Source of the DNA: Antedon mediterranea
Taxonomy: Eukaryota > Echinodermata > Crinoidea > Comatulida > Antedonidae
Reading direction: 5' to 3'
Length of the DNA stretch: 64,000 nucleotides
NCBI RefSeq assembly: GCF_964355755.1
Contig: NC_092672.1
Location: 26,098,501-26,162,500, forward strand
In this document: in pieces, positions 6,601 to 64,000 of the stretch
Layout: each line of letters starts with the position of its first letter
Position numbering within the stretch: the stretch's first letter is position 1
Translations under genes and position numbers: made by a program
Notes under the pieces: model-generated
The model's database searches: none
The model's input: only the letters and a program-made list of their open reading frames with translations
Told to the model about the DNA's origin: nothing

Positions 6601-9600
6601 TGTGTCATATACAATATGTACAGTATATACTGTATATCTATATACAGTGTAGCAAAGGTGAAATTACGGGACCCACATCATGTTCTATTTTTTTGGTATG
6701 ATTGAATTATCAAAATAAACTCGAAGATGACAATTTCGAAAGATAATTAATTGAGCAAATAAATATAAGGATTGGAAGAGAATTTGACACGTAGAAGCGC
6801 AATGCGCGCTCTTTGAAATTTGTATAACTTCGACTAAAGAAATTTAAAAACAACGTTTTAACTTCAACTAGCCATTATGATAATATCACAACATCCGATA
6901 GGCCTAATTGTTATATGAATTCATATCTACATTTCATCAGCTTTCATAATAAATTATAATCATCAAGGTTACATTTAATTCGGAAGAGCTGTAAGATATT
7001 CAAATGTATGGTGTAGGTGAAATTACACGACCTACGTTATTCAAGTTTTTACGCGTGATGACGTCATCAAAATGAAAATGTTGACAACTCATGAGAAAGA
7101 TAATTAAATGAACAATCATATACAAAAAATTTAGCGAAAATCGGGCACAAAATAACCGAGATGCGCTCAGTTGAATGTGATAATCTATGACAAAAGAGAA
7201 AAAAACCTAATTTTTAAATTCGAGTGGCCATTTGGTGACCTCGCAACATTTTGTACGTCAAAAGTGTACATGAATTTATATCTAGAACTCAATGGCTTCA
7301 AGAATAATTAAAAAAAATTGGGGGTCATCGTGCATTCTGAAGAATGATTTTCATTTTAAAAATGCCTTATTTTCCATCACTTTCAGCACATTTATGCAAT
7401 TAATGTGCACATTTTGTCATTTTTAACATGCTCGTATAGCGTTATTTTAAGTCGGAACGGACTCAAATTTGGTGATTGTACTAAGGGTGGTAAGTAGAAT
7501 GTGATTTCTACAAAAAATTCGTATTTTTACACTTTTTAAGAATCGCGCGCGCAAAAACGCATTTTTGCGCAGTAATTTTTTGAAACACGCAAATGGCCTA
7601 ATTCATGCTCTAAATTGATCAAAACTTAATTTTGAGCTTTTTAAATTTTTAACGCGCGATTTCACGCGCATGACCCTACGTGCACGTGCGTTTTTATTTG
7701 CTAATATTTTTACCCTTGACCTGAAGTTTATGTATAGTGAATTTCATTAATATGTGATAATGAATTATGGAGATATGATTGATAATGTGATTTCACAAAA
7801 TGGCGTATACGTGACGTCACGGATGAGTGATCACGCTGAAAAGCTTATTAGGACTAAGTTACAGTATTTGAAAGACATTGTGAAATTTTGGTAATCATTG
7901 ACATTAAACTTTTTTAGATATTTGTTACACAAAATAGTGCCCAGAAACAATAATAACAACTAGACATGTAACTCGTCACTTTGACGAGTTTGGTTATCCG
8001 CCGCGCAAGTGGTGTAACATTAACATTAAGGAGATAGGTTGAGGACAAAAGGAAGTGTTCACGTTGGCATTATGACCTGAACTGAAGAATATGATATGTT
8101 GTTATTGCTGAATTTTATTCTTTAAATTCATATATAGTATACACAGTATAATCTGTATCCATATCACATACAGTGACATGCAGTGTAGAATAGGTGAAAT
8201 TACGGGACCCGCTATTTATTGCAATTTTTAACATGTTGACGGTTTTAAAATGAAACGCGAAGGTAGCAATTCCGAAAGGAAATTATCTCAGCAACAACGT
8301 ATTAGCGTTTAGAAGAAATTTGAATACGTGAAATATTGATGCGCGCTCTTTTAAATGTAATGAATTATGACGCAAAAGATGAAAATACGACCTTTTTTAT
8401 TTAACTGGCCATATGATGACGTCACAACATCCGATGGGCAACATTTTTACATAATTTCGTATCTACAATCCAATAGCTTCCAGAAAAAGTTTTAATCGTG
8501 ATTATCACATTTTATTCTTACGAGCTATAACAGATTAAAATTTACTGTAAAGATGAAATTGATGCCTCACGTGATTTAAATTTTTAGGCATGATGACGTC
8601 AAAAAAATTAAAATATTTTTAACTCATGCGAAAGATAGTTGATTGACCTAGACAATATCAAAATCGGGGTGAAAATGGAAAACAAATAAGTGGAGATGCG
8701 CTCTATTCAATGTGATGAGCTATGACGAAAGATACAAAAATCCTAAATTTTATATTCGCGTGGCCATACGATGACGTCACAATGTCCGGTTAGCCATATT
8801 AATACCTGATCCGATACCTACAACTCATCTACTTCCAGAATATGTCATCCACAAAAAGTTGACCGTCTAGTTTAGAAATTACGACTGTTTAAAAAAAGGC
8901 ATATTTTAAACGAATTTTTTAACCTTTTCATAAAAAACGCGCGCAAATTGTCCAATTCGACGTGCTCGTATGACGTATCTTTAAGTCGAAATTGTTTAAA
9001 ATTTGGTAAAATTACTAGAAAAGGCTGTAAAAACATAAATCACGCAAAAAAAATACGTTTTCAATGCTACGTGCGCACCGCACACGTAAAAATGTGCGCA
9101 CGCGTGGGAATTTTTTACATGCTTAAAACGACATGAAACGCGTAGAAAGTTGATTATAAATTAATTTTGCGCATTTTGAAATTTTAAATGCGCGTGCGCG
9201 CGTAACTTTGTGTAAAACACGCAATTTTTTTTCAACAGAAAGTTAGCGCATGATATAAATTAAACTTTTGCAAAGTTTCACTTTAAAATGTTATTTGGTT
9301 TTCGACATATGTTAAATACGAGAAAATCGTTAAATCGCGCGTACGTCACGTTGCGCAATTGTAAACATCATGAAAAGCTTCGCTTGACGACGTTACATAA
9401 ATGTCAAAATGTTAACATAGTTAACAAAATGTTATGTTTGCAAGTTTTAGAGAAAAGCGTTACACAAAAATCATACAGAAAGAAAGAAGATTAAGAAAAA
9501 GATGTTGATGATGATTTCGTACAATCACAAGAGGTTATCCTGCAACTTCGTTGCGGATAACCAACTAGACATGTAACTCGTCACTTTGACGAGTTTGGTT

Positions 9601-42448: not shown

Positions 42449-45400
42449 ATGGTTGAAATAACGCCTAGTAGTAGGCATAAAGTAAGTATAGCTTTGTGAT
42501 ATGTGTATATTTTTTAGGACTTGTTGCATATTTAACAACTCACTGGTAACTTCACATGTGATGCCTACAAATAATGGCGACGGATTTTCAATTGTTTACA
42601 ATTATTATGGCATTTATGTTATAAAATCTAGTTGTAGATCTATATATAAAGTTATCCTACTACTCAAAGTTAGGTTTCTGGAATTTCTTGGTTGGCTGAA
42701 CACTACTGATCATATAGATGGGGTTACTAAACACCGTGACCAAATACAACAAAATATCTTACGGAGACTCATACCAGGAGGTTTAGGTTAGGATGAAACC
42801 AATTTTTACAGCAAACATAAATAAAACTTTGTCGCCCATTAAAGCAAAAACTATCTCTGAGATAATCGTCATATAGTTTTTTAGGCCTATTATTAATGTA
42901 AAAATATAATATTCAATTTACATTAAATAAGGTAATTATTATTTGTTTTTGTTTTAACTGTTTTTAACGTGTGTCACTTAAGGTGATATTTGTTATTTTG
43001 ATGCACCGTTAGGTACGGTATTGTCTAACGTGTATTGCTATTAAGCTATCATTATACTGATTGAAATAATTGGATTGCCCTGCTTCACCCATATTATTTA
43101 TTTTGGGGTTATGACGGCACCATGGGCCACACGACTGTATAACAAAAAGTTGCTGATTTACACATTTTTCTGCTTATAAAAGCCCGGATTTGTGTTCTTA
43201 TTTTGTTAAAGTTAATTCTTATATAATTCTTATATATTTATGATATAATAATAGTAAAATATTGCATTTTTGTTTCAGTCTTTTTTAGCTGTGTATTTTT
43301 TATTAGTAGGCCTATTACTGGATATTACAAAAACAGGTTAGTTTTTCATATATACATTTTATTTCTAAAAATTATGCACCTAAATTTATTCACAATATTA
43401 CAGTATAATCATGTTTTCATTTTATTTTGGTTTATTCATACATTTTGGTCAGTTTTGTTTCTTTGCAGTATATTATTTGTTAAGAGCTACCTCACACAAG
43501 GTTTGGCTTTCTTGATGTCCCACTCTTTCATTTGATAAAATTGGAGGCAGAATTGTGTATTTTTATTTCCTTCACATGAGAAGTAATTGGGAGTTGAACT
43601 TGTGGTACGCGCATGGTGCTTCCCTGATTAAAGGAATAAATAGATATAATTAACTCTCTAATTCAAACAGTACTCATTTTAGTCAAGTCACTTTTGGTTT
43701 TGTTTTGTTTTGTTGTATGTTCTGGTAGTTGTAAATGTAGGCCTCCCATCATCTAAAATCGTATGCAATTCTTAAATGTATTGTCCCACAAAACGGGAAA
43801 AATGAATGTTAATAAAAAAAAATTAATAGGTAATTTTGCAGTTTAAATAAACTTAATCACTTCCGTGAGTTTAAATTACAGTTTTTCAGGTAAACATTTT
43901 TGTTGGATCAAATTTTTGGTCAAAGTGAATAACTATAATTTAAAAAAAATGTAAATAATTATTTTTTTTCATGATGACAATGCATCTTTAATGAAAGACC
44001 ATCATCCGACATTTTAACCGCGTATGAAGAATATACACTGAATATGTTCTAAAATGTCAATTATTAATTCCCATTTAATCTAGTTGCATCGTTACATTTA
44101 CATAAACATTTAAAAATAATCTGTAATCGAGACAACAATCATTTGAATTTGATATTATGATGTGTTCTTCTTTTTCCAGAAGTACATGGTGAATTAATCA
44201 CATCTGACCAGGAAGCCAATGAAGGTGATGCTGAAGTGAGGATACCTTGTGACTATTCACAACTTACTTCTACTACACCTGCTGGAATACAATGGGATGA
44301 ACTAAATGAAGATGGGAACATCATTACTCCTGGCTTTGTTAATGATAAGAGGACTCAGAATGGTCGTTTTGAATTAATAAGCGAAACACTTGGGAAAGCT
44401 GACTTGGTGATGTCACTTCCAAACAGATCTGATTCTCAACGAATATTTCAGTGTGAGGTAAAAACATCAAGTGGAACCATTAAAAGATCAAATCCTTCTA
44501 TTCTAACTGTATATTGTGAGTAACTTAACATATCAATATCATACAACTGGAGAGTTAGAGAGAATAAACATTTGTTTTTTGTTTGTTTTTACTAATTAAT
44601 AATGTATTCATTAATTAACTCAAGAATATAATGTTTGTTATAAGTAGAAAAACCTCAATATCAATTTAAATAATATTAAATTCAGTTTATACTGTATATA
44701 AAAAAAGAGATAGGAGTTAATTTTCAGTATTGTCATAGTACCATTTTCTTTGTTTCACTTGATATTTATTTTAGGTATCTAAACTTTTAATCAATAGCAC
44801 ATAAATATAAAAGTTAATCTTCCTTCAAAAAGTTAAATGCTTAATGGTTTACATTTTGGATGTTTTTAAACACTGTTGTTAAGGTCATTTTTTTCTGCAA
44901 CAAAATACTGTCCATCTTTCTCCACTGTAAATTTGACATTTTTTAGAAAATTGAAAAAAAAAACTATAAAAACCAAATAAACATATACAATTTCACTAAT
45001 GAGCTACAGAGGTACAGTATAATGAATTAACACAAACACACAAGTGTTTCACAGGAGTTTAAGTTTGCGAATGAAAAGTTGCTGTCCGAGTTTGAATGGA
45101 CACAATTGTATATTGTATATTATGATATTTCATCATTTTATTACTCTTGTTTCAGATTTGGATAAACCAGTTATTGTCTCGGCAAGTGCTATATATAAAG
45201 GTCAAACAGTGACCTTTACCTGTAGTACACCTGGTGGTAACCCTCCTCCTCGCATTACTCAATGGTATAAAAATGAACAGACAATCCCTAATAACCATTC
45301 TAGATACGATATTATTGCAAGTAACAATACAGTTCTTAAGATTAAATCAGCTACTGTAGAAGATGATGGGAGATATACATGTAAAGCAGAAAGTGGTCAG

Positions 45401-48400
45401 TTTAAAGGAGATGATGGAAAAACAAGCGTGGTCATACAGTTGATAGTATATGGTATGTAAACTTGGAACATATTTATTAAAATAAAAACTGCTGTGCTGC
45501 ATTTTTTTGTAGTTAATATTACGATTGAAGACATTTTGTTTAAAAAAAATATAGTTATTACCACATGTTGATTCTATATTTGGGGCCTACTAATGAGAAT
45601 GTACATCTAGAAAAAAAATACCTTGTGTTCTTTGCGATCTATCAGTTAAAATAACATTATCTGATACAGTAGACCTATTGTACATTGTTTAGATGTTGTT
45701 GTTACTTTTAAATCTGAGAATGGCTTTGCAACCTGTACTGCAGTTGGTAATCCCAAGCCGCCATCAGTACAAGTAGTAATATTGCAAAATGGAGAAGAAG
45801 TTAAGAAGGGAGAAAATACCGCAGCTGTAGAAATTAATGACGAAATATGCAAATCTAATCTTACATGTTATGCAGAGAATACTAAGCTTAGTAAAACAAC
45901 GTTGGAGAACTGTAGTGCAGGTAATACATCAACATTAATAAAGGTGTTAGACGTAGTTAGATGGGTAGGGTGGAAGAGGTAAATGTGAGCATGAGATGTA
46001 CTGTATGCTAATCACAACCTATATAAATAAAATTATATATAATTATAAATGGTCGCCTTTTTATGCCATTTATCTACCTGCTTAAAATGTTGTCCATGCT
46101 TGTTGGGATTTTATATACCCTTTCACACACATTTACATAGTGTTTTGTTTACCTTGAAAGTAATTTGAATTAGACCCTGATGCAGACTGAAGTATCTATA
46201 AAAGTGAAAATATTGTGCATACAAAACTAACTATACACAACTCCAAAGAATTGCTTTGAAGACAATCTATTATTAAGCACTTATTGGTAATTTGTATTAT
46301 GGTAGTCAATAGTTTTTTTAACCGTTACTCTAAATGTCGGATAAACAGAATGTCGAAGAATTTTCTAAAAAATCGTCAACACTGTCACACATTCGTAATA
46401 AAAGTTGTTTTTAAATTGTTATTAAATAGGTCAGTCAGTCATTCTTTCATTTAAATGAAATATTCTTCCCATCAAACTCATCTTAAAACGCTCTTTTTTA
46501 CTTTTAAATTGGTCAACATTTCATTTTTTCATTATTTTCTTAGCCATTTGATTAATTAAAGTTTTATTTGTGTTGTTTGCTACTGATAATTGATATGAAA
46601 AACATTAAAATACATTTGAAACTGACATACTAAACTATAAATAGCATAACTAAAATCTGAGACAAATGTCACACTGTATCAAATAATTTGCCTATGAATA
46701 CTGGACACATTATGCCATATGTGGAGTACAAACACAGAGGACGTGATAACAAATCTTTAATGTTCATAATAATTAATCAAACTCATGTTTTTGCTGGTTA
46801 CCATTATACTAATGAATGAATCGTAATAAAAATTTAGGAGATTTGTTGAATGTTTGTCAGAAAACATTTTAAAATGCATCATATTAATATTCTGCAATTA
46901 CAATGGCAATGGCGTCTTACCCTGTACTCTATATTTTAAATTTTATTGAATTGTGGTTTCTATTTTTTATTTTATTTATGTTGTCAATTCTGGTCAGTTC
47001 AAATATTGTTGTTAATAATTTCATATTAATTAAACTAACAATTCATTACACGATAATCTGTGCCTTATAACATCCTTGAAGATAATTATATCGAAAATGG
47101 ACACCCTTTTAACAATTATTGAAATTGAAATATATATTTGATCAGTGGCTGTGATGTACTAATACACCGGGTTAACCCCCTACTCGTCTCGTAAGATGTA
47201 CTAGGTTCTTTAAAGTGCACACAAGCTAGATGTGTAACACTGGACCGAGAAGACTGGTTCTACCACCAGAACCATGGAGTAAGTGAGCCTCGAACCCTTG
47301 CCGATGTTATGGCTACGTAATTACGGTTCCACTGTCTTAACCGCTCGGCCACTCACTCACTCACTATGTAACATAGAATAGGTGTTGTTCATTAGTACAT
47401 GACCCTACAACATTTCTTGCAGTTAGAGAATAGTAGATAAACATCACAAGGTGAAATATTTCCTTAATGACACTTTACATTTCTGTAGTATTGTTGCTTT
47501 CTGCTGGTTTCACTTTTTGATTTGATTAAATATTTTGCCACTAAAATGAAATTGATTTGTCATTAAATTGACTAAAACTACCACTATTATACTGTAGTAG
47601 TGGTGGTGCTTCTTGTTTTATATGTAAAATTGAATAAAGAAAAATAATCAGCAAATTGATTAATAATAATAATAATCATAAAAGCACTGCCAGTCGATTT
47701 TAATATGGCCTATACAAAGATTGTAAATTGTTTTTGTAGGTATTGTAGCAGGTTCAGTATTATTGTACATTGTTCTGATTGTGATTTGTGTTGGATTGCT
47801 GCTATGGTTACTGCTTCTTGTTTGTAAGTAAGATGTCTTTTCCCTTAATTATTAATTTTTAATTAATTGCAAGATTCGATATATCCTGCACTTTAAGATA
47901 TTCATTGCTTCGTGAGCACTTGATAACAAATCAATTTGTTACAATTAAATTTTAATTATACAAATTGATGATTACAAAAGACTTTGTCATTTTTATTGAT
48001 TAAGGGGTAGTAGATTTAAATGATTTATTTAAAAATGATATTTTTAATTTAAATTTTAAGATTTTATGCATTACAAGAATATTGAGTGGAGCGATACAGA
48101 TATTGATATAGCCACAGTTGAAGGAGGCAAGCCAGTTACGATGAGTTGGAAATACCGTCCAAGTATTGCAAGGTTCAAGACTTTTGAAATAAAGAAAGAT
48201 AACAAGGTGCTTGGTTCAAATCAAAAGCAATTCAGTAGTTGCAAAAAGGTCTGTCAGTATGTCTGTTATTGCTGTGTTTACTTTTGCGGATTTTTTTGTG
48301 TTGACTACACTAATAAATCATGTAAGTTATATATTTTTCTAGTAGGTAATTATTTTCAAATTATAATTATGTTACATTAATTTTTAAATCGACTTTTTTT

Positions 48401-51400
48401 TGCTATGCACAACATTGTAAGAGTATAATAATGTACTTTAATGGTAGTAATTGTTCAGGCTAAATGAGCAACATTCGTGAGTCAATCGAATACAAAGAAT
48501 ACATTTTGTTCATCATACAAATCAGTGAAAATATTATTTATTCTTTTTAAATGGTGTCTAAGGAAACCTAGAATGTATGTACGGTATGTCAAGACATAAG
48601 ATTACATTAATACATTTAAATTTAGTTTTGTATAGATATTTGTAATATAGCGTAAGACAAGATAAAACAAGTATTGTATATGTCTATTTAAACTGATTTA
48701 CATATTTATAATATCATATTTTAAATTATATACATTTTACTTATCATGGAGATAGTCGAATACAATGCAAATCCTTTTTCTTCACACCTTATCATGAGTA
48801 ACTGCTGTATACATTAATTTAAACTCATTCACTTCTGAAAATGTAAAAAATATTCTGATTTCTTTCATAGTTGAGGATAAAACAATGCATAGAAACAAGT
48901 AAGTTTAGTTTTAAAATTTCAATAATTTATATAGGTATATTATTCATGAAATTATTTATGTATGGCTATGATTATAAAATCATAAATATGTTTTGTTGAT
49001 TTTTTCTTCTGTTTTCATAGAAATTTCAATTACTACATTATTGCAGCCAACAGTCCCATATCTAAACACATCTATATTATTTCCACAACATTTCCAACAC
49101 ACAAATTTACCTTAGTATAATATAACCAAAAGCAAAATATGCCTATTAAAATACTTGATATTGATGTATTGTATTTTAATATCTTGTTTTGTTAACAAAT
49201 ATCAAGCAGAAGTGAAGAGTGTGAGATGATGGCCAAAGAAAGAGAAGGTCCAGAAGGTGCAGTAAGTAAATAATATATATTTTCTAGTGGAAAACGGAAT
49301 CTACAATGTTTTGTTAAACTGAGTTTATGTGGTAACCTGATCGTAATCAACAGGATAATCAATTTCAACCTAAATTAGCTAGAATTTGTAAATGTTGATT
49401 TTCTAAAACGATTAATTTTAGTAAAAGAAGCCAATAAATGTTGTAATAGTAGACTACAATTACATTGTTGATGTTATAGCTATTCATTGATTTGACACTG
49501 TTTTTTCAAAGAAAATTCCTGATGATAATGAAGATAGTAAACTTCTAGCAGGACATCAAGAAGCATCTGGTGAAAGTACAGACGATAAAGGTAAATGTTA
49601 ATATTGTTTATTTAGTAGGCCTACTTCTATTTATAATTTAAACAATTCAAACATACTTAGCCGTTGCCTGTCCAATATCGACGGGCACCATCTTATAATG
49701 AGTTTGATGTTTGGGAATAAAAAAGACAGTACAGTAATAATGTTATGCAGTATATACAAATCTATAATTGGATGTACAGTACCAAGCTGTACATTACAGC
49801 ATTTAGATACAGTTAATATGGATACTGATATACCTATTTATTTGTTCATATTTTTTTTGGACAATGAGTAACATGTTGTCAGCACCCTTATTTACATGGT
49901 TGCTTTCTGCATGACCATTAAAGAAAGAATAAAAGGAATACTAATAAATACCTCTATCTATTGAGGGCGATATCTTTTATGATTATAATGTACACTCATT
50001 TAGTAATTTCTAAATTTGTACTTAACTTAACTTGTCCAGAGGTTCCAAAGTTTATGTCAGATTTAGTGGAGAAATAAAATGTAGTGGCGCGTGTGCTTCG
50101 TATGTTTTACATGCTGGGTACCAGGTTCGAGTCTTGTTGATACTTCATGGTCATGGTTCAATTTGTACTGATAATTTGCTGTGTAACAAGATCATATACA
50201 AACAATACAATTAAACAATGTTATTACAGAGATCTTGATCATTCTCAATATGTTCACTATAACATTTAAAAATGGTTATTTTATAAAGTAATTGTTGCCA
50301 TATCTATACATCAGTTTTGATGAATTTAATGCAATTAGTATTTTCTTACCGTATTTATTGTTCAGGAAGTGTTTTAGGAGGGAGGTGGATGAGATTTTAT
50401 TCAAGGTTTATTCGGGGATGGCGTTTTTTTTTGTGGGTGTAATGGTAATCAAATAAATACCCCCAGTATGAAAAAATACAACACCCACAATTAAAATAGT
50501 AATACAATACAGTAAAAATTGTATCAAATCCCTGGTAAATTGTAGGTGTGTCTCAGAAATATGTTTTTGTCTTAATTGTTTCCCATTCAATTAGTGAATA
50601 CATTTTAATTGCTTTTTTTAATAAAGGAAGAGATATCAGTCATACAGTAAGCTTTCGTTTTTCTTTAAAATCTGCAATTTTACCAATATGTGCATACTAA
50701 TAATATTTTTATTTATTTATTTTTTTTATATTTTACATTGTATAAATACCGTAGAAATTGCTTTAATAGTTACTCTTTTTTCAAATATTAATAAAAAAAA
50801 ATCAAATGACATATTTGTCTAAACTTGCTATACATTTCAGTAGAATTGTATTATATAATTACATTTATATTACGTTATAATTCATTACCTTATCTTCATA
50901 TGTTTATCTTTACATTACAAGAGGCCACACAAAATAACGTCTAATTAAAATACTGTAATACTATTGATATGGAAACATTTTCACAGAATGAAGTAGTTTA
51001 TCCATCTGGTGTTTCGATGCCATTTGAAAAACCTGTCATTTATGCTCAAGTGAAACGTGGCAGAAAATCTACTGGTGATATTTATTATTATTTATTTACA
51101 AAATGAATTTAAAAAAAAGTGTATTGCTTTATTTTGCAAATTACTGAGTATTTTAATAATATAACTATTGGCACTATTAGATTTATATTTTTAAATAATC
51201 ATTTTGATAAGAGGTGTTAGTGTTGTTATCCGAGACATCTGTATATCAAGCAGAAAGTTCCGGTTTCAAATGTCGATCAAGGCGGCGGATTTTTCTCATA
51301 GTCACAGATTTCCTCATCTGTATCGTTTCGAATTAATTAATTCAATTTTAGTATATCACTGGGTAGTTTAGAATTTCTTCTGTGCCTATTAATTTATATA

Positions 51401-54400
51401 ATTGTTTTCCATCATTGTTGCTATTGTAGATCTAAACTTTGTTAATGCGTTTTGTGTAGATTATAGGCCTATCCTTCTAAATTAGGCTACTTATTATGAT
51501 TGGGTGCAAAACCAAATATGCATCAAATAGTCTTTCTCATCATCATGTTTTTGTCCACATTACATTTGTACTGCATTTTGAAAATAATGAAAATAATTTA
51601 ACAGTGAATCTATTTTTACTAATTTCTTTTTTATATTCATTTATAATTGTTTGCGTATAGCTATACTTAATGTGTTGCATAGGTTAGTTGTAATTGATAA
51701 TTTTTTAATTTTACAAACTATATTTTAACGTTTTCGAAAGATTTTTGTTTTTGTCAGACATACCTTGCACAAGGTTAACATGTATTTGTTGTTATACCAA
51801 TCCTACATTCCTATGCGTTCATTGGTTTTAATTTTATTTTTATTATTATTTTATTTATGCCACTAGGAAAATCAGATAGTAAACACAAAGAAGAAACATG
51901 CAAGGTATTATTCATTTTTTTAGAATATGCTTATTTGAAGAGAGATAGGAGGCTGTTCTTATTGAGAAAATTAAATTCTATTTCTTAATCAAACACGACA
52001 TCTATCAAAGCAATTGTGTTCATTTACTTATTGCATATACTAATTGTGAAACTGAAAGTCGATAAAGTTGTTCCAGTTCATGGATACTTTCTTTGTTTAT
52101 AATTATGATAAAATGTTTTTGTTATTTATTGGGAATATGTCTTAATTAGTTTATGATAAATTATAGAAAGAAATTCAATACGCTGATCTTGATTTACAAG
52201 TCAGTAGGCCTACCTCGGGAAGGATAATAGATAATGAGGAGCAAACACCATATATAGAAATGTCACACGGAAGACTTGTCAGGAAAGGTATTATGGTTGT
52301 ATTGAAAAATTAAAGACACTGACTTTGTGTTTATTTCAAATTCATAAGAAAAGGAGAATAATAATGCTTTGATAAACTGATATTTTTATTGTTTGGATTT
52401 CATATCAGAAACACTTGTTTTCTTCTTTTGAATGAATTGTTAGTAGGCATAACATAGTGCTGCTTTTCAAATTGAAAAATATTCAACAAAATATAATTAT
52501 ATATATAGCTACAGTAAATTTAAACGTAAGAGAAAAACTTAATAATAGAGATATGAAGTTTACAAGTAAAAGTAAACTTAAATATAAAAACAACTTTATT
52601 TGTACAGTAAATTTTGGCTAAACACTTGAGTAGATAGAATTTTTTTTTAATTTCATTTCTTACAAAGTCCGTATCATTGTTGAATTTTTGGAAGATTATT
52701 ATTTTCTCAAAATTTAGATTTTTATTTGTACAGTGATACAACCTTATGACACAATAAATTATGTTTTTATAGAAGTCTTTCAACATCCCAAATAACTTAA
52801 AAAATTAACTGCAATTAGTGACAACTTTAACAAGTTTAAATTTTAGTTCATTTTGTAAAATGAACAGAATACAAAGAAAAAGCCTGACAAATTCGAATAC
52901 ATGAATAACCTTTCTCATCTTTATGCTTTTTGAACAAATGTCTTTTTTTATATAATTATTGCATTGTTTTAAATGGTCAGCTCATGATCTTGTGAATAAC
53001 TACTTCTACACACATTTGTTAGCACTACTAGATATGGCACAGTTTAATCAACCTAACATGTTTTATTTGTTATTTTAAAAAATGGAGTGGATTGATTTGA
53101 TTGTTTTTATATTTCATGCTCTGATGTATGTATTAATTTTGTGGCATACACACTAAAAAAAAAAGGTGCAAATCTCTACCTAAAAAGGTGCAAACCGATG
53201 CAACAATAGCAGCTCCCTTTAAGGTGCACAACTGCACCTTTGACGGAAGGTGCAATTTTGAACCCTGATAAAGGGTGCTATAATGCTCCTTTGGAGTTCA
53301 CATTTGCACCATATAAGGTGTAATTTTCTACCCTAAAAGGTGCAAACTAAATGCAACAATAGCAGCTCCCCAAAGGAGCAAAATTCAACCTCTAAATAAA
53401 GGTGCAACTTTACACCCTAATAAAAGGTTCAATAATGCTCCCCTAAGATTCAAATTTCTGTTAAAAAGGTGCACAAATAAAAATCACTAAAATACAAAAA
53501 ATATTGATTAAGCTTTGTATAATTTTATTCAACTTTAAAACATTACATTATTCAATTCAACTGCTGAATTAATGGATGGCAATTACCAGTCTCTGCACCT
53601 TAAATAGAGTGTGGCCATCTCTTCTCAAACCAAAAATAGGCCTATTGTTAAAATTATCTAATGATGACATCTTTGGCAGTATTCTCTTCTTATCCCCATA
53701 TATCTGAAACAGTGTTCTTGATGTCTGGTTCACCTTTTCCGAACATTTTCACCTGATTATGTACTTTCCTAAAAAGCATGAAATAGGAAGGGAAACTATT
53801 ATATTAATATTATCATTAATATGACAACATCATACAATACATTATTGACATTGTTCTGATTTTTAAAGTCAAATTACCTTGACCACATGCTTCACATACT
53901 TTAAAGTATGTTCCTCTCCCTTTCCTCAGCTCGTAGTATAGTAGGCGCTATACTAGAGTATTACAGTACATGTGGTCACATTTCTTTCTCCTTTTCTGAA
54001 CATTTTTATTGCTGCTGATTAGAGCAGAGGTGCTCTTTCATGTTTTAAACTTATTTTATCCCTCCATGACATCATGTAGATTGTAGGCTGTAACTATAAT
54101 TAAAAATAATGATAATGTGTATAAGAATTTAATATAGGCCTAATAATACCCAGCTACTGTAACAGCCCACGAAATTCAGAAAAAAGAAGGTCGGCAAAAA
54201 ATTGCCGACCTTAAATTCGCCAAGGTCGGCAGTCTCGGCAGTTCTAAAAATAGAAAATTCACCCCAAGGCCTAAACCTCTTGCTAACCTAAAAGGCCTAG
54301 CTAGGCCGGAGCCTAGCCTCCCTAGCTATGTTATGCAAAAAGAACTAGCAAAATTAACTTTAAAAAAATATAAAAACCTAACACTAAAATCTACAAGATA

Positions 54401-56955
54401 AATTCTATTTGATAATTAATTGCTGAATATCATGGTTCTGGAGCTAGCCGTACACAGAGCATAGTTGCTTGCTTGGCATAACAGGGTATTCCCCTACACA
54501 GGTCTGTGGCGCGCAGCGCTGTGCCCAGCCAGCTTGGTTGATAGGAAAGCATGCAGCTCACACACAAAATGATGTAATGGTTGAGTGAATTCAGGGATCA
54601 TCTTAATTCCATGGTTTGTTAACTAAACACAACATGGTGGTGAATATGCCTGTTAAAATTTCAATGATACGATCCCTTAAAGTACCATGTTGTTGCTAGG
54701 AGGCTTGAAAGGAGGGATCTAGCCTAGTTTCTAGGTCGGCAATCTCTTGCTGTCCTCTGACAATTTAAGGTCGGCAATAAGGTCGGCAATTGCCGATTGC
54801 CGACGTGAAATTCGTGGGCTGCTGTAATAACTAATATTAATAACTAGGCCCCTGGCCTGCCTAGCTAGGCCTATTATTGATTATAGGCCTAGCCGGCTAG
54901 CTAGGCCTAGGACTGCTTTTAATTAAGTTTAAGGTCTAGGCCTACCTTTAGTAACCTAGCCTAGCTAGCCTATATTATGCCTAACCTACTAGCTAGACCC
55001 AGGTAAGTAGGCTAGGCCTGGTCTAGGACTAGCCCCCGCCCGAAAGGCTACTGTAGGCTAAGTAGGCCTCTAGACTGCCTACTTTAGGCTTAACCTAGCC
55101 TAGGCTAGGCCTAATAGAGGCCGCCTACTAGGTAGATAGGCTAGGTAGGAGGCCTCTAGCTAGCCATATTTATTTATTTAGCTATCATTTTTAAGTTTTA
55201 GGCCTAGCCTAGGCTTATAGGCCTATACAATAATTAATCTAATAAAAACAACCAAACTACATGCCTATAAAGCTTCGTTACTTACTTTTAACAGCTATCC
55301 TACACTGGAGAGGTGTGGGAGCTAGGCCTAGTTTAATTTTATAGCCTGATTTTTTGGGCGCAAACTCCTCAATTCAAACTGCATGTTTAACAACCGCACG
55401 CGCTTAAAATTATTGTTCAATTCCTGTTTCAAATAAATTTAGAACAGATGCCTACATTATGATATTAGATATTCTAATAATATTGTTAAATATGAAAGAA
55501 AAGTTTACTTATTCTAGACTTAAGCAAACCAGAGTAAATGACCTCTGAAATTCAATATTTTAACAATTGTTTACAGACATCTTGCGTGCGCATACGGTAC
55601 GAAAATTGTACAAAAATTGTACAAAAAGGTGCTATTATGCACCTTTTAACTGATGTTAAACCTTATAGGGTGCCCAGTTGAATTTATCATGTTAAAGGTA
55701 TTAAACTTTAATTTTCAGTTACAAGCCAGCGACTTTTTAATGTTCCGTAAAAAAAAAGATTTGTTCGAATTCCGATAGCTGTCCCCACAAACCTATCTAT
55801 ATTATTATTAATCTTTCTTATTTTTGTTTTAACTTACCACAATAATGTCATTCTAAAAAAATTGTCCTTATCATCACCTTTTAAGCTTTTAGAAGCCCTA
55901 AGTTAAACATATCAAGAAGCGTTCATTAATCTAATAGGTCTTATTTGTCACACAGTCACCATGGCCTACTTGGGCCTTTGCGGTGCAGTTCTGCACCTTT
56001 GTATACTTGTCTGCATTTTTCGATATAAAAGGTGCAAAAATAAACCTTTTATGAACTCTGCACCATTTTATGAGAAAAAGGCGCAAATTAGCACCCTTTT
56101 ATAGGTTTGCACCTTTTATTGCACCTTTAGTTTTAAGTGTGTACTTTCAAATTTAATTTTCAAATAATATTGTTTTCAGTTTTTAGAACGCATAGTTAAA
56201 CCATATTTGTTATTTTTAAAGTTAAGAGTACAATAATTGTCAGAATTAATACTTATTATATTATTTTTTTAATACTTATTATTATATATTAAAACTATTT
56301 TAAATGCATTTTAAAGCAAACTTACAAATTGCAATTGCAAATTCAATTTCTAACATAAATGCTGACCATGCACTGAATATATTTAGTCCTGCCTTGGGTT
56401 TTAATTTATTGGATTTTTTATGCCGCTATAGGAACAACACACATTGAACTTGAAGAAGAAAAGTCCAAGGTATTTCTAGTTTTAAAAAAAGGTGCTCTGT
56501 TATTATGTTAACAATTTACAAATGCACTCCTCCTACTAGGTATGAAGACTTAAACACAGCCTACGTGCTATTAACAAAGCATACATAATATCAGCACCTT
56601 TAAAAACGATTTTGTTTATTTGATCTCTATTGTGTCTTACTAATTATTAACCTTGTATTACAAAATGCAAGAATGGTAAAGAAACGATTTTGGTGAAGAA
56701 TAGATAATTAATTCCTTTAGAAACCGAAAGCTGATGAAGTTAATACAGTACATCCTTAACTGCTTTCCTTGTTTATATAATTTCTGGTGCAACTTTTGTG
56801 TATATTTTTGTGTATATGTTAACTTTATGATAAATTATAGAAAGAGATTCAATACGCTGATCTTGATTTACAAGTCAGTACCTCAGGAAGAGTAATAGAT
56901 AATGAGGAACAAACACCATATATGGAAATGTCCCATGGAAAGCTTGTCAGGAAAG
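42449..56955 (+). CDS. Ig-superfamily transmembrane receptor with ITIM/ITSM-like cytoplasmic tail (3' end not resolved)
   Basis: Exons chain in phase: 42449-42481, 43279-43336, 44180-44515, 45156-45452, 45693-45920, 47740-47823, 48871-48898, 49207-49261, 49512-49590, 50627-50646, 50987-51074, 51867-51904, 52167-52287, 56432-56469, 56841-56955 (539 codons so far). Residues 1-30 are a split signal peptide (SFLAVYFLLVGLLL). Ig1 is residues 31-142 (CDY...FQCEV), Ig2 143-241 (TFTC...DDGRYTC) and Ig3 242-317 (ATC...LTC). The transmembrane segment is about 318-345 (VLLYIVLIVICVGLLLWLLL). The tail has VIYAQV (Tyr425), IQYADL (Tyr453, Tyr506) and TPYIEM/TPYMEM (Tyr477, Tyr528). The small exons 48871, 49207 and 50627 are weaker calls, but they are needed to keep phase. 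The tail motifs resemble those of SHP-recruiting receptors such as PZR, PECAM-1 and PD-1. Ligand unknown. Confidence 0.72.
43279..43336 (+). other. Signal-peptide exon of the Ig receptor
   Basis: Translates as SFLAVYFLLVGLLLDITKT and joins the 11-codon exon at 42449-42481 (phase 0) and the Ig1 exon (phase 1). Its VGL codons are a TAGGCCTA motif. Confidence 0.65.
43772..43992. mobile_element. MITE related to 18153-18453
   Basis: The left end TTAAATGTATTGTCCCAC and right end GACAATGCATCTTTAA mirror the MITE at 18153, and the interiors align loosely (TTTAAATTACAGTTTTTCAG, TTTTTGGTCAAAGTG). The ends are less perfect, so it is older. Confidence 0.6.
47145..47365 (-). repeat. tRNA-derived SINE
   Basis: On the minus strand the head carries box A (TGGCCGAGCGG) and, about 45 bp on, box B (GGGTTCGAGGCTC), the spacing of a pol III promoter. 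The head is followed by a roughly 130-bp non-tRNA body. ACTC microsatellite repeats border the 5' side. It lies in the intron before the transmembrane exon of the Ig gene. Confidence 0.7.
48066..48252 (+). pseudogene. Orphan half Ig V-like exon in the tail intron
   Basis: The open frame reads DIDIATVEGGKPVTMSWKYR and then FKTFEIKKDNKVLG, like strands A-C of a V-set Ig domain, but with Trp where the strand-B Cys should be and without strands D-G. It lies after the transmembrane exon, in the wrong place for an extracellular domain, and no in-phase splice pair was found. It is probably a decayed leftover of Ig exon duplication. Confidence 0.4.
50078..50145 (+). repeat. Possible tRNA-derived SINE fragment
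   Basis: GTAGTGGCGCGTGTGCTTCG followed by a box-B-like CAGGTTCGAGTCTTG. A degraded tRNA-like head without a clear cloverleaf. Confidence 0.4.
51205..51320 (+). repeat. Possible tRNA-derived SINE fragment
   Basis: GTTGTTATCCGAGACATCTG, then AAGCAGAAAGTTCCGGTTTC and AAATGTCGATCAAGG, resemble a diverged tRNA head (box B degraded) plus a SINE junction. Intronic. Confidence 0.4.
51867..52287 (+). repeat. ITIM exon pair, copy 1
   Basis: A 38-nt exon (51867-51904, GKSDSKHKEETCK) plus a 121-nt exon (52167-52287) encoding IQYADLDLQ and TPYIEM. The same pair, with matching phases and partly alignable intron sequence, recurs at 56432-56955. It differs from copy 2 by an extra AGGCCT in the larger exon (52205-52212 is TAGGCCTA; copy 2 has only TA). 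Confidence 0.8.
54163..54821. mobile_element. 659-bp nested MITE with 16-bp TIRs
   Basis: CAGCCCACGAAATTCA at the left and its exact complement at the right, flanked by the direct repeat CTGTAA (54157-54162 and 54822-54827), a likely 6-bp target duplication. The interior has palindromic GGTCGGCAA/TTGCCGACC motifs near both ends. Superfamily not identified. Confidence 0.8.
54840..55240. repeat. TAGGCCTA palindrome cluster
   Basis: Dense, irregular runs of CTAGGCCTAG and TAGGCCTA, like those at 1960-2260 and 58280-58620. Low complexity, no fixed period. Confidence 0.8.
56432..56955 (+). repeat. ITIM exon pair, copy 2
   Basis: A 38-nt exon (56432-56469, GTTHIELEEEKSK) and a 115-nt exon (56841-56955) encoding IQYADLDLQ and TPYMEM. 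The larger exon is close to identical to copy 1 around the tyrosine motifs, whereas the small exon has diverged. Read-through past 56955 gives a stop within two codons, so intron retention could end the protein here. Confidence 0.8.
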
Positions 56956-57963
56956 GTATATAATATAGTAGTATTATACAATCCACAATTACAATTTTTT
57001 TTTTACTATACCGACATTTCGATTGATTCAGATGGTTTTTTTTTCAGACATTGTTACTTATTACAGCATTATTTATTTTTGAGTAATTATCTTTTAATTT
57101 GTATACAATATATAAATATTACACTAAATATTATAATAAAAATATTATAATCCTGTTTCTGATGCGAAAAAAATAACCGATTAATAACTGTGTGACTAAT
57201 TACCCCTTATCTCGTGGCAGCAGAAACAGGAACAATTTTCAATTATTTACCGGTTATGGCAGCGTAAAAATAATTGTTTAAAACATCCACCATTTAACCG
57301 GCTATCATTGTGCAACTTTTAGCTGCAACACACACGGTTATTTGATTTACAGCTGTAGTATCTTGTACGTTTGACCGCCTGATCACATTGCATTTTGGGT
57401 AATGTTAATGTGTTTTTCAATGACCAACCACTGGTTTAAACGGTTATTTAGGAGTACAGAAAAGACCCTTTTTTATCAACATTCATAAATGACCTATAAA
57501 ATTAAAACAATAAAATGTACTCCTAAATAGTCTAACAGCTCATATACATATACACGAAGGTACTCTATTTCTACTATATATCATATAAATAATATTTTAA
57601 TGGCTTGGGAGGAGAGTGGATGTGTCGTGTTTTTGAGTTAGAAACCAATTTTGTAATTAAGTCCTATTTTTTTAATGGAATTTTTTAATTTAGTGCAGTG
57701 AAAACAATAAAGGCCAAATTACACAGACGAGCGGTAACGGTAAGCGGAAAACGCAAAAGTAGAATCTATGTAATTTCCTTAGGCCGGTGCACACCAAACG
57801 CGAAGCCGCGAATTTCGCGTTAAAAAGTGACGCACGCGGCAGGCAACGGACGCTTCCAGTGTGAACATACACGCGAACAGTGTACGATAGTCAAATTTCA
57901 ACTTCAACGCGTTGAAAACGACAGCAGCGAAGGCTTCGCATGCGAATTTTCAAAAGTTGAACC

Positions 57964-58968
57964 GTGGTCAACTTTTTGAGGCGTCGCGAGCGCGGTTCGC
58001 GTTCGTCAACCAATCAGAAGTCAGGAATATCACTCATCGACGACACCGACGGCAAAAAAATTGTGGCTGACGTGACGAGCGAGGTCTTTATGGAAATACT
58101 TTGTAATTACCCTTCTTGTCTTTACGATAAGGGAAGTAAGTCATACACAGACAGAAACAAGGATTAATGCATGAAGACAAAATTTCAGACAAACATAACA
58201 TCTGTGTAGAAGAATGCCAGAAAAACTAGGCCTAAAACGCGTCAGAGATCAATTTGTAAAGTGAGTTGGCAAGCCTTCTATTTCTAGCCTACCTATAGGC
58301 CTAGGTTACAGGCCATACTAGCGCCTAGCTAGGCCTACCTAGGCTAGGGCCTAGGCTACATATACCCTAGTAGGCTAGGCCATGCCAAGTAGTACTTATA
58401 GGCCTACATAATACTTACTAATCCCTACTAGTCTACTATGTGCTAGGCCAGGCCTAGCCTAGGCCTAGGTTAAGCCTACTACTAAATATGAGTACAGTAG
58501 GCCTACTACTAGGCCTAGCTACTAGGCTAGGCTAGGCCTAGCCTACTTATTATTATTCATTAATATTTATAGGCCTAATAGTTAGTTTATTTAGTGTTGT
58601 AAGGCTAGGATAGGCCTAGTAGTAGTAATAACTAATATTAATACATAAATACTGTTGTTTTTGTTTTGTTTTTTTTTAGGTCAATTAGATGAACATTGAT
58701 AAATGGGATCCTTCAGGCTATTACCAGCGTTACAAACTCCACCAATGACCAAGCTAGTAGTTTAAGTGACCAGTATATTATTGCCATGGAATTAAGAGCA
58801 ATTGCTCCTCAAAAACGTGGACTGGCAATTATGAGGCTGATACAGGTTTGTATAGACTTTTTTCAAATGGGTATGTCAGTTGGTGACATACATTGGCCAG
58901 AAAAAAATTATTTAAGCAATATGCCTTACTATAGCAATTTTTTAATACTTGTTTCATTTTTTTTTTAA
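57964..58968 (+). pseudogene. MADF-BESS DNA-binding protein relic of a Harbinger-like element
   Basis: A first exon has FMEILCNYPSCLYDKGSKSY, the N-terminal helix of a MADF (Myb/SANT-like) domain. It is then broken by indels and stops near 58165-58240, with DKHNICVEECQKN and LKRVRDQFVK recognisable in shifted frames up to a donor near 58258. A second exon near 58690-58847 has DQYIIAMELRAIAPQKRGLA, resembling a BESS motif. PIF/Harbinger elements commonly carry such a second, DNA-binding ORF beside the transposase. This copy is non-functional. Confidence 0.55.
58280..58620. repeat. TAGGCCTA palindrome cluster
   Basis: Irregular dense copies of TAGGCCTA/CCTAGGCC inside the Harbinger-like element. 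Confidence 0.8.
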
Positions 58969-60320
58969 ATAGAAAATGGAAGAGATTAAGGAGGAGTTAG
59001 ACTGTAACTAGTATTTATTAAGTGGTTATAGAAGGAAAGCTGAACTGAATGTCTTTTTTTAGCAATAGAGAACACATGGAAATATATGTATATGTTTTGT
59101 TATACTCCAATACTAAAAAAAATAGTCAAATTGGCTGCCAGCTAATGGAATTTTTTTCATTTTATAAGTGAAAACATAAGTTTTTTTGTTTTTTTTTCTA
59201 TGTAAGTGATTAACTTTGTTAAAACTACAAAATGGCCTATTAAAATTTGATTTTAGTCATCTTCATTTTTCATGATTCTATGAGACAATACATCTTTAAG
59301 TTTAGTGTCATATTTTGGACAAGATATATTGTCTTCCTGAAAATATAATTTAAAACATTTTCGTTGTGTGTAATACAGTATAACACTTTAGGGTTAGTTA
59401 TTCACTTTTAACAATAATAATATTTCTTCAATTTTCGTTTTTTTTTTGGGATGATACATTTTAAATTTATTATTTTGATATTATTTTGCAAAAGTATTCA
59501 GGAGTAGTAAAAAAGAAAATCTGGTTGATAAATGATACCTTTAAAAACAATGATTCACTATTTCAATAAGTGTATTTATGTGAAAAAAAAGTCATAAGAT
59601 ACAGTGTAGATATGAGTTTGGGATATTTATTACATTTAATCAAATGAGAATAAAACTGTATGTTTTTTCATGAATAATATAATATTTAATAATAATTAGA
59701 AAATAAATGTGAAAACTTTACATTAATATATAGGCCTATAGTTTATATTTTGAAAGTGACAAACCCATGAAGATTCCCAGTTCGTGTTTATATGAAATGT
59801 TTTATATGGTTATAATAACCTCTGTTGAAAGATATTTGTAACACCACTAATAAATAGTCAGCAGATCACATGTACGTGTAATCAACATGCAATAAATGCT
59901 TTAATTCTTGTAACTGTATTGATATTGGATACATCTTCTTCTGTCCTTGTGATATATACATACAATCATGCACATTTCAGGCTTTGGAAAAGGATAAAAT
60001 TTTCCCACCAAAACCAAACACTGTGATTGGTGTAACCAGGGAAGAGTTAAATTACATTTTAATTTAACTCTTCTCTGGTTAAACTTACATAGGAAATACT
60101 TCAGAGTCATCCTCTCTGATTATTTTAAATGTAGCATTGTATTATTGGCCAACCCACTATCTAGGCCTAGCAATCGCGACGAATCAGCACATCGTGACGC
60201 GTTTAGTGGGAACCAACAAGAAAAACTAATAGACGCATGACAATTCAACTTTCAAAGCGATCCGTCGAATGACGCGTGACGCATGACGCTTTGCGGCTTC
60301 GCGTTCGGTGTGCACCGGCC

Positions 60321-62141
60321 TTTATGACCATTTACACAGAACGCGAAGCGGACGGGAGGTAAGCGGAAATACGTGCAGGATAGAAACAAATTCTGTGAAA
60401 ATACCGCACGGTAATTATGGATTCTGGTCAATCAACGACATGATGTGGCGTCAGCTATTAACAACTGTTTTGAGTGAGTCCGTCAATAAATACGAGTGCC
60501 GTAGTAGGCATAGCCTAGTTCTGGAACTTCTTATTATTCAATACAAACAACTTGCAACTCGTCTGTGTAAATTGGCATCAACGCTTGACACACATCATTG
60601 ATTTTAAATTTGTTAGCAATTATTTCAAAAAATTATTTGTATTTTCCTTATCAATGTTTTAAGAATGTACTGTTTATGTGTATCATGTTTTGTTTCTTTT
60701 TGTTTGTTCTAGCAAAAGACTCAAACAGGTAATGTTTTGTTGATTATACATTAACTGATTTTTTTAACTGCCAGTAAATATTTTGGTAGCTTACTCACAG
60801 GTTTTTTTTACGGTTTTAAGCAACACACATTTATTTCATGCTGCTATACTGTTCACTATTCACTAATTCCTTCTGTATCACCTATGGGATAATGCTGTTT
60901 CAAAAGGGTTCAATTTATTTACATTCTTTTTAGTTATTATCATAATGTTATTAGAATTAAGGTTAATATATTATTTATGTGGTAGTTAGTTGTAATCCAT
61001 ATCATAACATTTATATTCAATTCTGTGTTAAATCACTTTAATCCAGTTACCTTGTTTTTAGTTTAATGATATATTTGATTTTATTTTGGAAACATCATAA
61101 CATACATACAATATATGATATAAACACTTAATATATTGAAATTTATTTCCATATTTTATAAGATCAACATCAACAAAGTATTTTTTCCGTTGCTTTTCTT
61201 TTGCTGTCTTCCTTTGGAACGGTTTATCGATCTCTATCCATCAGGCTCATTAAATTTAAAGGTAGCTTTAAAAACTCGCTTTTTTAACTCTTAGTTTTCT
61301 TTATTTTTTTAATCTCTTAAATCACATTGCATCTCATCATGCGCTATAATCCACATTATTATAATTTTATTAAATCAAGTAGCTAGACTTTTTGCTAGAA
61401 GAATGTATACAATTATTAACCTTGTTTTAATAGTTTAATAAATATATACTACCCTTGTATATTTTTCTTTTCATTTAAATCCTTCAAATGCAGTTCTCTT
61501 GTATTTGTGTAGTCCATAGTTCATAAGTGTGCCTGCTTGAATTGTTATTAATTGTTCAAAATTGTTTGCTTTTACTTTGGAGTGTGTTTCTCTGTCAGGA
61601 AAATCTCTCAGGGTATTTCATGATTTCATTTTATTATGTAAATCTGCATTAGATATTTGTTTATATTTTTGCATGGTTAATAACAGTTCATAAATTTGTC
61701 GAAATGGTTTTATACATAATAAGTAGTAATATAAGTACTCCAACCATAATGCATTCGCAACCGTACATTTTCATCCGATAACCATCCAGAAATGGAATGA
61801 GCCGCATGTGCGCACACGTCTTAATAAACACACCTGTATGACATTCTAATGTGTGGATGGTGTGTCTCGTATTTTCCTGAAAAATTTGTATTATTACATT
61901 TTTTTTTTTTTTTTTAGATCTGAAAATTCATATTCAAGTAAGTAACATTAATATTATTTCAATTTTACTTGTAAGTTATAATTGATCAAGTTGTAAAGCT
62001 TATTAATAATATAGTATGTTAGAATCAGTCAAATAAATATAAATAGGCCTATATGAAATGATGTAATTTGTTGCTTAATTAATTAATAAATAATTAATTA
62101 AATTAAAAGCATATAAAAAAAGATGATTGTGACATGTCTGT
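60321..62141. other. Region between the Harbinger-like element and the second Ig exons
   Basis: Mostly AT-rich. Two tiny candidate exons have good splice sites: 60713-60728 (after TTTGTTCTAG, before GTAATG) and 61918-61937 (after a long T tract and AG, before GTAAGT). They are in phase with exon 56841-56955 and would read AKDSNRSENSYS, so they could extend the tail of the ITIM receptor. A hydrophobic stretch at about 61174-61260 (FSVAFLLLSSFG in one frame) could be a signal-peptide exon of the next gene. All three calls are weak. Confidence 0.35.
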
Positions 62142-63979
62142 ATATGTATATTCGTTTGAAGTGTTTGCAAATGGTAGAGGGAGAATAAGCCTAAGAGTGC
62201 AAAATCCTGTAGGATCTGATTCAGGGACGTACAACTGCAACATAGAGGGCAGTAGCCAGCAACATCCAGTCCGCAACAGTTTATCTGTTTATTGTGAGTT
62301 TTTATAATTTATTATTCTTAATTGTTCACTAAGGTATCTATGTTATTGTTTCTCTTCTTATTTGTTTATTTATTTATTGTGTTATGAAATTCAGGATTTA
62401 CATAATATTTTTAAACAAAGGGATAAAGATGGTAAACCCCGAGTACTTAGCAAGACATGGTATCGATAATTTTGAAATGAAGTGCAGATATGGACCAGAA
62501 GATATGCAGTTAACAGGTTACAAGTGGAAGAAGATTAAAGAAGATGGCACAACAGAGATCGAGGATTGTTCTAAAGATCCTAATTTTGAAGTAAAATGTT
62601 ACCAAAATAGCATTCTCTCGTTAAAGAAAATAAGCAATTTTGTAATTGGTGATACTGGGAAGTATCATTGTGAAATTCATCCAATTGCTGAAGAAAAAAG
62701 TCTGAAAGCTTCTACAAAGCTGACAGTAGTAGCTAAAGGTAAGTTTTTTTTAAAATAATTTATGAACACTGTACAGTAGCGGATTTTGTAAATAAGGCGT
62801 GGTGATATTGTGTGTAGTACATATTATGTATTGTAAAACAATGTGCTAATGTTTTATTTTTTTGCATTAAACTGTTCAATATTTAGAGAAAACTGTTCAA
62901 TATTTAGAGAAAACTCAGGCTGCCCTTCCCCGTAAACCATGGGTCTGCCTATGCTGTACTATTCTTATTTCAAACATTTATTTTAGATACTGAATTAAAA
63001 ATAGTTTTAGTAATATTTTGTAATTCTTAAGGTATACGTTAGTGGGCTAAAAATTATGATACAGAAATTGATCTGTTGATTTGTATGCCTAGCTAAACAA
63101 ATCTAGTACTTGGTTGCAGTCCTACCAAACACCATGCACATCCTGCATCACCACACATCACATAATGATATGAATAATATACTGTGTGGTGTTAAATAGG
63201 GTTGCGAACTGTTTAGTATGGAAACTAATTCCAATACAATACAGGATCTCTAAATGATTGACTATCGTAAATTTTGGCCTTACTTATTTTACATTTGTAT
63301 TTTAAAATGCGCTATATGTGAACATTTGTGTAATTTAACACGTATGAATTTGGATTTCTTAAAAGGCAAGAATAACTTAAACGAAAGGCCAGCCAGTGTG
63401 TTTACCCATAGGTCATTTGGCCTTAATATCGAATGTTCAATTTAAAATTGTCTCGGTCTAGTCTTATTTGCGAAATTTAGATTTCGTGCGTGTTTTAATA
63501 TTGTAGAAACGAATCCTGGTTTTATTAAAAGATTCAATAGAAGTGAAATCAGTACTTACAATAAACATAAGATATTTATATTTTTCGTTAATTCTTTTCA
63601 GAATGATTCCATTGATATTTACAGATAAACACATATTTAATGAACATTGTATTTGTGTGGTTTTTTTTAGATCCAGTATTGACAATAGAGAAAAGTATAA
63701 TGTGTTTAGCAGAAAACGCCATTATTCCTTTTCGTATGTTATCAATTCCACAAAATATCAATGAATTTATTTTTGAAAAACTTGAATCCGGGAAATGGAA
63801 GAAAGTTGGAAGTTCAAAATGTTCTGGCAGATTGTGTGTACATTATGATACAGTAACACTGGAAGGATATCTTACAATTCCAACAGTTGAACATTCAGAT
63901 GCTGGCGAATACCGCTTAAAATGTGTGACAGATGAAAATGATATTGTTTACTTGGCAAACTGCAATTTAGATCTGGCCT
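62142..63979 (+). CDS. Second Ig-superfamily gene, partial (three Ig exons; continues past window)
   Basis: Exons about 62142-62293, 62421-62738 and 63671-63979 join in phase 1, like the Ig exons of the upstream receptor. The first gives the back half of a V-type domain (RISLRVQNPVGSDSGTYNC); its front half and strand-B Cys are not visible, and its acceptor lacks a pyrimidine tract. The second (FEMKCRYG...GDTGKYHCEI) and third (SIMCLAENAIIPF...DAGEYRLKCV) are fuller Ig domains. The donor GTAAGT follows 63979, so more exons lie beyond the window. Likely a tandem relative of the ITIM receptor, since an Ig block after a cytoplasmic tail would not fit one protein. The N-terminus is unresolved. 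Confidence 0.6.
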
Positions 63980-64000
63980 GTAAGTATATAATGGCAAGTT

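Follow-up and report, generated by a model that had tools for sequence, protein, structure and literature searches.

A clustered family of immunoglobulin receptor genes with putatively inhibitory tyrosine tails in the crinoid Antedon mediterranea

The window analysed here is a stretch of 64,000 nucleotides of the Antedon mediterranea genome (contig NC_092672.1, positions 26,098,501 to 26,162,500 of the forward strand; C3 below), and all plain coordinates refer to it. It contains a receptor gene of the immunoglobulin (Ig) type, gene A, followed on the same plus strand by Ig exons of a neighbour, gene B. Gene A consists of 16 GT-AG exons at 42449–56955 with a stop codon at 56962–56964, as established by a check of splice sites and phases. 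The original prediction had chained these exons from the letters of the window, and all 16 (16/16) are present where it placed them, with AG/GT flanks throughout except that E1 begins at the start codon. The phases agree along the whole chain, and a single open frame of 628 residues ends in GI-stop at 56964. The predicted architecture was likewise recovered in this product, which runs from a signal peptide through a V-like Ig domain, an I-set Ig domain and a short third Ig domain to a strong transmembrane segment and a tail of 196 residues. The prediction was right about the chain and made no mention of the E7 segment, the two-exon modules of the tail or the clustered family described below.

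The signal peptide and the extracellular Ig domains expected of an ITIM-bearing inhibitory receptor are encoded by the first five exons. E1 (42449–42481) carries the start codon, encodes MVEITPSSRHK and leaves in phase 0 through a GT donor, and E2 (43279–43336; AG/GT, phase 0 to 1) supplies the hydrophobic core of the signal peptide (Kyte-Doolittle 1.67). The membrane-distal domain in E3 (44180–44515; phase 1-1) matches the Pfam V-set profile only at E 0.03, below the cut-off. An AlphaFold model of this domain built from five paralogues (mean pLDDT 83) has a V-type Ig fold, with TM-scores of about 0.65–0.78 against antibody VL and TCR V domains. Pairwise dN/dS for E3 among family members is about 0.5–1.6, a rough range for so short an exon. 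The second domain, in E4 (45156–45452), is strongly matched in Pfam (Ig_3 E 4.5e-17, I-set E 1e-13). The third, in E5 (45693–45920), has a weak Ig_2 match below the cut-off (E 6e-4) and is conserved in paralogues.

E6 (47740–47823; phase 1-1) encodes the strong transmembrane segment (Kyte-Doolittle 3.2), and after it E7 (48061–48321) adds a basic, half-Ig-like segment followed by a conserved, Cys-rich hydrophobic stretch, CKKVCQYVCYCCVYFCGFFC. Each of the two exons can be skipped in frame. No Pfam match was found for E7, and its structure model, of low confidence, shows strands and then a helix. If the Cys-rich stretch is a palmitoylated cysteine string, the tail would stay inside the cell; if it crosses the membrane a second time, the tail would lie outside. 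The tail continues through E8 (48871–48898), E9 (49207–49261) and E10 (49512–49590), all placed by splice phases and the last two kept in most family members, and through E11 (50627–50646), a micro-exon of 20 nt leading from phase 1 to phase 0 that is required by the frame alone. The remaining exons carry the tyrosine motifs. E12 (50987–51074) encodes PVIYAQV, which reads PVTYAEV, PVIYAKV or PVTYADL in paralogues. Two repeated two-exon modules follow, each with a short exon that passes from phase 1 to 0 (E13, 51867–51904; E15, 56432–56469) and a longer one that holds IQYADL and a second tyrosine site, TPYIEM in E14 (52167–52287) and TPYMEM in E16 (56841–56964). E16 is read through to the stop in our model; the alternative would be onward splicing at the GT at 56956.

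The tail has six tyrosines, at residues 498, 512, 540, 564, 593 and 615, which include three ITIMs (VIYAQV and IQYADL twice) and two ITSM-like sites. The distances of 24 (540–564) and 22 residues (593–615) between paired tyrosines agree with those originally given for the two modules. VIYAQV and both copies of IQYADL match the ITIM consensus [SIVL]xYxx[ILV], and the match is kept in paralogues. The ITSM assignment had been called loose from the start, and rightly so: with Met at +3, TPYIEM and TPYMEM fail the strict form TxYxx[VI] and are compatible with the PI3K motif YxxM. Strict ITSMs occur in 3/8 aligned tail exons, all from paralogues on contig C8 (TPYMEV twice, TQYMEV once), and in the remaining exons the +3 residue of the TPYxE-type sites is Met, Leu or Phe. 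When the tail was shuffled, at least three ITIMs arose at a frequency of 0.0008 and at least two at 0.017; the latter is the fairer figure for chance because two of the three ITIMs come from duplicated exons. Conservation provides stronger evidence than the shuffling statistic that the motifs are not accidental. Across the eight aligned tail exons, which come from five genes, the two tyrosines are invariant (8/8), and so are the residues around them (D, L / T, E, S, G, L). The two modules of the window gene itself, E14 and E16, differ with dN 0.034 and dS 0.398 (dN/dS 0.08), and comparisons of window with C8 tail exons give dN/dS of about 0.15–0.38 with one outlying pair at 0.81, all rough values from short exons. 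A search of the PDB with the tail gave no match. An additional TxYxxL-like site (TEYSQL, AEYSQL or TEYSNL) lies in E10 of some members (loci L039, L042 and L043) whose tyrosine modules are missing or decayed.

Gene A belongs to a clustered family. E7 is its most conserved exon and serves as the family marker, with at least 19 copies in the genome and a mean column identity of 86% over 19 copies. One copy is in the window on C3, one is on C4, and 17 lie within 1 Mb on C8 (C8:4.76–5.78 Mb). In four C8 genes, E3 to E16 are colinear with the window gene in order and strand, the tyrosine modules included, which supports the assignment of the Ig and transmembrane exons and the tyrosine exons to one gene. 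The suggestion that the locus might represent a receptor family with a neighbouring Ig gene is thus strongly supported.

Possession of the tyrosine tail varies within the family. Intact tyrosine exons were found in 5/19 members; the tail-bearing gene at C8:4.801 Mb has an in-frame stop within one of its two tyrosine modules, and the gene at C8:5.750 Mb retains the exons as decayed copies. In 13/19 members no tyrosine exons were found in the 3' stretches scanned (each roughly 5 kb long and broken by a short gap; distant exons could have escaped), and the tail is thus inessential to the family. These 13 members usually retain E9 or E10, and in nine of them the scanned stretch extends as far as gene B with no tyrosine exon between. 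A generic scan of the tail-less members for other tyrosine exons gave none that was convincing. The similarity of the genes at C8:4.763 and 5.229 Mb (loci L027 and L029) to the gene at 5.699 Mb (L020) ends about 30 bp before E12, and DNA similarity resumes about 250 bp past the last tyrosine exon. Because these breaks flank the tyrosine-exon block, the block was deleted in the two genes. The block is common to the C3 gene and four C8 genes, and for this reason the tail-less state is read here as loss.

Downstream of gene A, the gene B exons in the window are the C-terminal half of an Ig domain (62162–62293; V-set E 3e-4), which recurs downstream of C8 members, an Ig exon (approximately 62423–62737; V-set E 8e-4) and a further Ig-like exon (approximately 63670–63981; Ig_3 E 0.03). 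Another V-set exon follows past the end of the window (L024:4076–4372; E 2e-6). A genome search with the second of these exons (62.42–62.74 kb) gave 64 matches, almost all of them within the megabase of the C8 cluster. This exon is found 4–15 kb downstream of 18/19 A genes on the same strand, the C3 and C4 copies included, which indicates that A and B move as a unit. The exception is the A gene at 5.350 Mb on C8, where the half-Ig exon of B is still present. Two expansions of gene-B-type exons were also observed. At C8:5120987–5141927 (minus strand; L068), a tandem array of about 38 Ig exons, all open, fills 21 kb with a period of about 1.05–1.1 kb and an identity of about 97–99.7%; this may represent either one giant multi-Ig gene or a set of alternative exons. 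At C8:5088079–5090374 (plus strand), downstream of the A gene at 5.080 Mb, a smaller run holds five gene-B Ig exons in 2.3 kb.

We favour, with moderate confidence, the interpretation that gene A belongs, as a dispersed member, to a clustered family of type I Ig receptors with at least 19 genes, and that the ITIM-bearing receptors of this family most likely recruit SHP-2 and are inhibitory. The genome encodes a tandem-SH2 phosphatase: the SHP-2 orthologue at C3:14.098 Mb retains both SH2 arginines (FLCRPSKS and YLVRESHS) and the start of the PTP domain. Ala or Val is favoured at pY+1 in SHP-docking ITIMs (PMC8631942), and the ITIMs of the gene A family have Ala or Val at this position. The ITIM reading of VIYAQV and IQYADL is supported by consensus, by paralogue conservation, by the pY+1 residue and by the phosphatase gene, and the putative function of the tail is likely inhibitory through SHP-2. 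If the receptor is expressed and oriented as proposed, its fast-changing, V-like outer domain would bind a ligand, a cytoplasmic kinase would phosphorylate the tail tyrosines, and SHP-2 would be recruited through the tandem of IQYADL and TPYxE-hydrophobic sites about 22–24 residues apart, so that an activating signal would be damped. An immune role of the family is plausible. The cluster as a whole probably functions as a receptor complex in immunity or in self/non-self recognition, for which a mixture of ITIM-tailed and apparently tail-less receptors, each with a linked gene B, would be expected.

Two alternatives concern what is made from the locus. The chief doubt about the inhibitory reading comes from E7, whose Cys-rich stretch is hydrophobic and strongly conserved, with a basic loop ahead of it and acidic residues behind, a pattern suited to a second membrane crossing that would leave the tail extracellular and its tyrosines unphosphorylated. 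Its Kyte-Doolittle value of 1.5 is borderline, and 1.6 is the usual transmembrane threshold; the cysteines are arranged in what we take to be the manner of a palmitoylated string, and selection has preserved the SH2-type residues flanking the tail tyrosines. We therefore regard a two-pass protein as quite improbable. A and B might also form one alternatively spliced gene, in which skipping of E6 or of the tail would yield long multi-Ig forms beside the ITIM-tailed ones. B stands consistently behind A on the same strand, E7 and the first B exon resemble the N- and C-terminal halves of one Ig domain, both in phase 1, and an N-half exon for B was not seen immediately upstream of it, either in the window or at several C8 loci. 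However, a search for a conserved, strong internal donor ahead of the Cys-rich part of E7, through which A could be joined to B, found none, and B's own 5' exons may have escaped detection. On balance a single A-B gene appears unlikely.

The other two alternatives accept the tail as cytoplasmic and give it another task. ITIM-like sites are also known in the adhesion proteins PECAM-1 and PZR, and gene A could be a homophilic or matrix-binding receptor of this type in which the ITIMs scaffold SHP-2 to promote signalling, with no part in immunity or recognition. The tandem spacing of 22–24 residues resembles that of PECAM-1 and PZR, as their spacings are generally known, and Ig domain 2 is of a generic I-set kind, with titin, contactin and Robo as its best matches in the PDB. 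A tandem cluster of 17 members, a fast-evolving distal V-like domain and tail-less forms are, in contrast, better suited to a recognition family, and we consider an adhesion receptor the less probable by a clear measure, if worth keeping in mind. Docking of PI3K p85, which would make the window gene activating instead of inhibitory, draws on YIEM and YMEM, which match YxxM in both window modules. However, Met at +3 is confined to the window gene, with Val, Leu or Phe in the paralogues, and the partner ITIM site is invariant. This makes PI3K docking very unlikely for the window gene, and a conserved YxxM as a feature of the family is ruled out.

Recognition receptors with an inhibitory, SHP-2-recruiting tail, the reading preferred here, have counterparts in other lineages. 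In architecture and gene arrangement, the closest described system is the FF/FcoR locus of Botryllus schlosseri. Its FcoR proteins are type I receptors of 520–610 aa with a V-type Ig domain, further Ig domains, a transmembrane segment and a long tail with possible ITIMs, and the tails vary between members (PMC12065747). As in FcoR/FF, the crinoid genes are clustered, adjacent, paired members of the IgSF, with a B exon beside 18/19 A genes. In contrast to FcoR, a Pfam scan of protein A shows no sushi domain; a HECT ligase does not accompany each pair, with one HECT exon within C8:4.76–5.78 Mb; no hemITAM was seen in the crinoid family; and nothing corresponding to the conserved, Cys-rich E7 is stated for FcoR. 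We do not file the family under FcoR/FF because the sushi domain and the per-pair HECT ligases are absent. The Alr locus of Hydractinia is similar by description, being a large cluster of V-set/I-set Ig genes, with 41 reported (PMC11999971), and with ITAM/ITIM motifs (PMC12065747).

Vertebrate KIR, LILR and SIRP share with the crinoid family an Ig ectodomain, an ITIM tail, a tandem cluster, long- and short-tailed forms and Ala at pY+1. They differ in that no specific sequence kinship was found; furthermore, pairing with an activating adaptor through a charged transmembrane residue was rejected for the tail-less members examined, in whose E6 no such residue was seen. In PECAM-1, PZR and PD-1, paired ITIM/ITSM tyrosines about 22–25 residues apart serve the tandem SH2 domains of SHP-2. 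The crinoid tail has the same order of an ITIM and then an ITSM-like site at 22–24 residues (the values compared are general knowledge), but its module is doubled, an extra ITIM is present, and the second site is mostly not a strict ITSM.

It is tentatively possible, on somewhat less than even grounds, that the locus represents a receptor complex not described before in invertebrates, on a par with the leukocyte receptor complex or with an allorecognition locus, with about 17 A-B pairs in 1 Mb, ITIM-tailed and tail-less receptors arising through loss of the tyrosine block, conserved cysteine-string juxtamembrane exons and a tandem array of about 38 nearly identical Ig exons by which B may be diversified. 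Clustered ITIM-bearing Ig receptors are on record for Botryllus, a tunicate (FcoR), and Hydractinia, a cnidarian (Alr) (PMC12065747). If the preferred reading holds, a further invertebrate lineage would stand beside these two with clustered, paired, ITIM-bearing Ig receptors, and the case would be firmer that an inhibitory switch based on SHP and receptor clusters under birth-and-death evolution are older than vertebrate immunity. The locus is a concrete target for the study of haplotypes, expression and SHP-2 binding.

Traces of mobile elements are found in and around these genes. Between A and B, at 57781–60321, lies an element of 2.5 kb bounded by 32-bp terminal inverted repeats (94%); by eye, and without confirmation in Pfam, its short ORFs resemble MADF/BESS proteins of the Harbinger type. 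Downstream of gene B, degraded ORFs at L024:360–900 and 7890–8870 resemble, also by eye, fragments of a LINE-type reverse transcriptase. The octamer TAGGCCTA occurs at 49 sites in the window (for example at 52205), against 0.5 expected, and further sites are at L017:7455, L017:5481, L022:2153 and L065:1986. In alignments of paralogues it appears as an exact 6-bp insertion, from TA to TA[GGCCTA], and such insertions could be footprints of a DNA transposon with a TA target. One of them adds two residues to E14, and another introduces a stop codon into a tail exon on C8.
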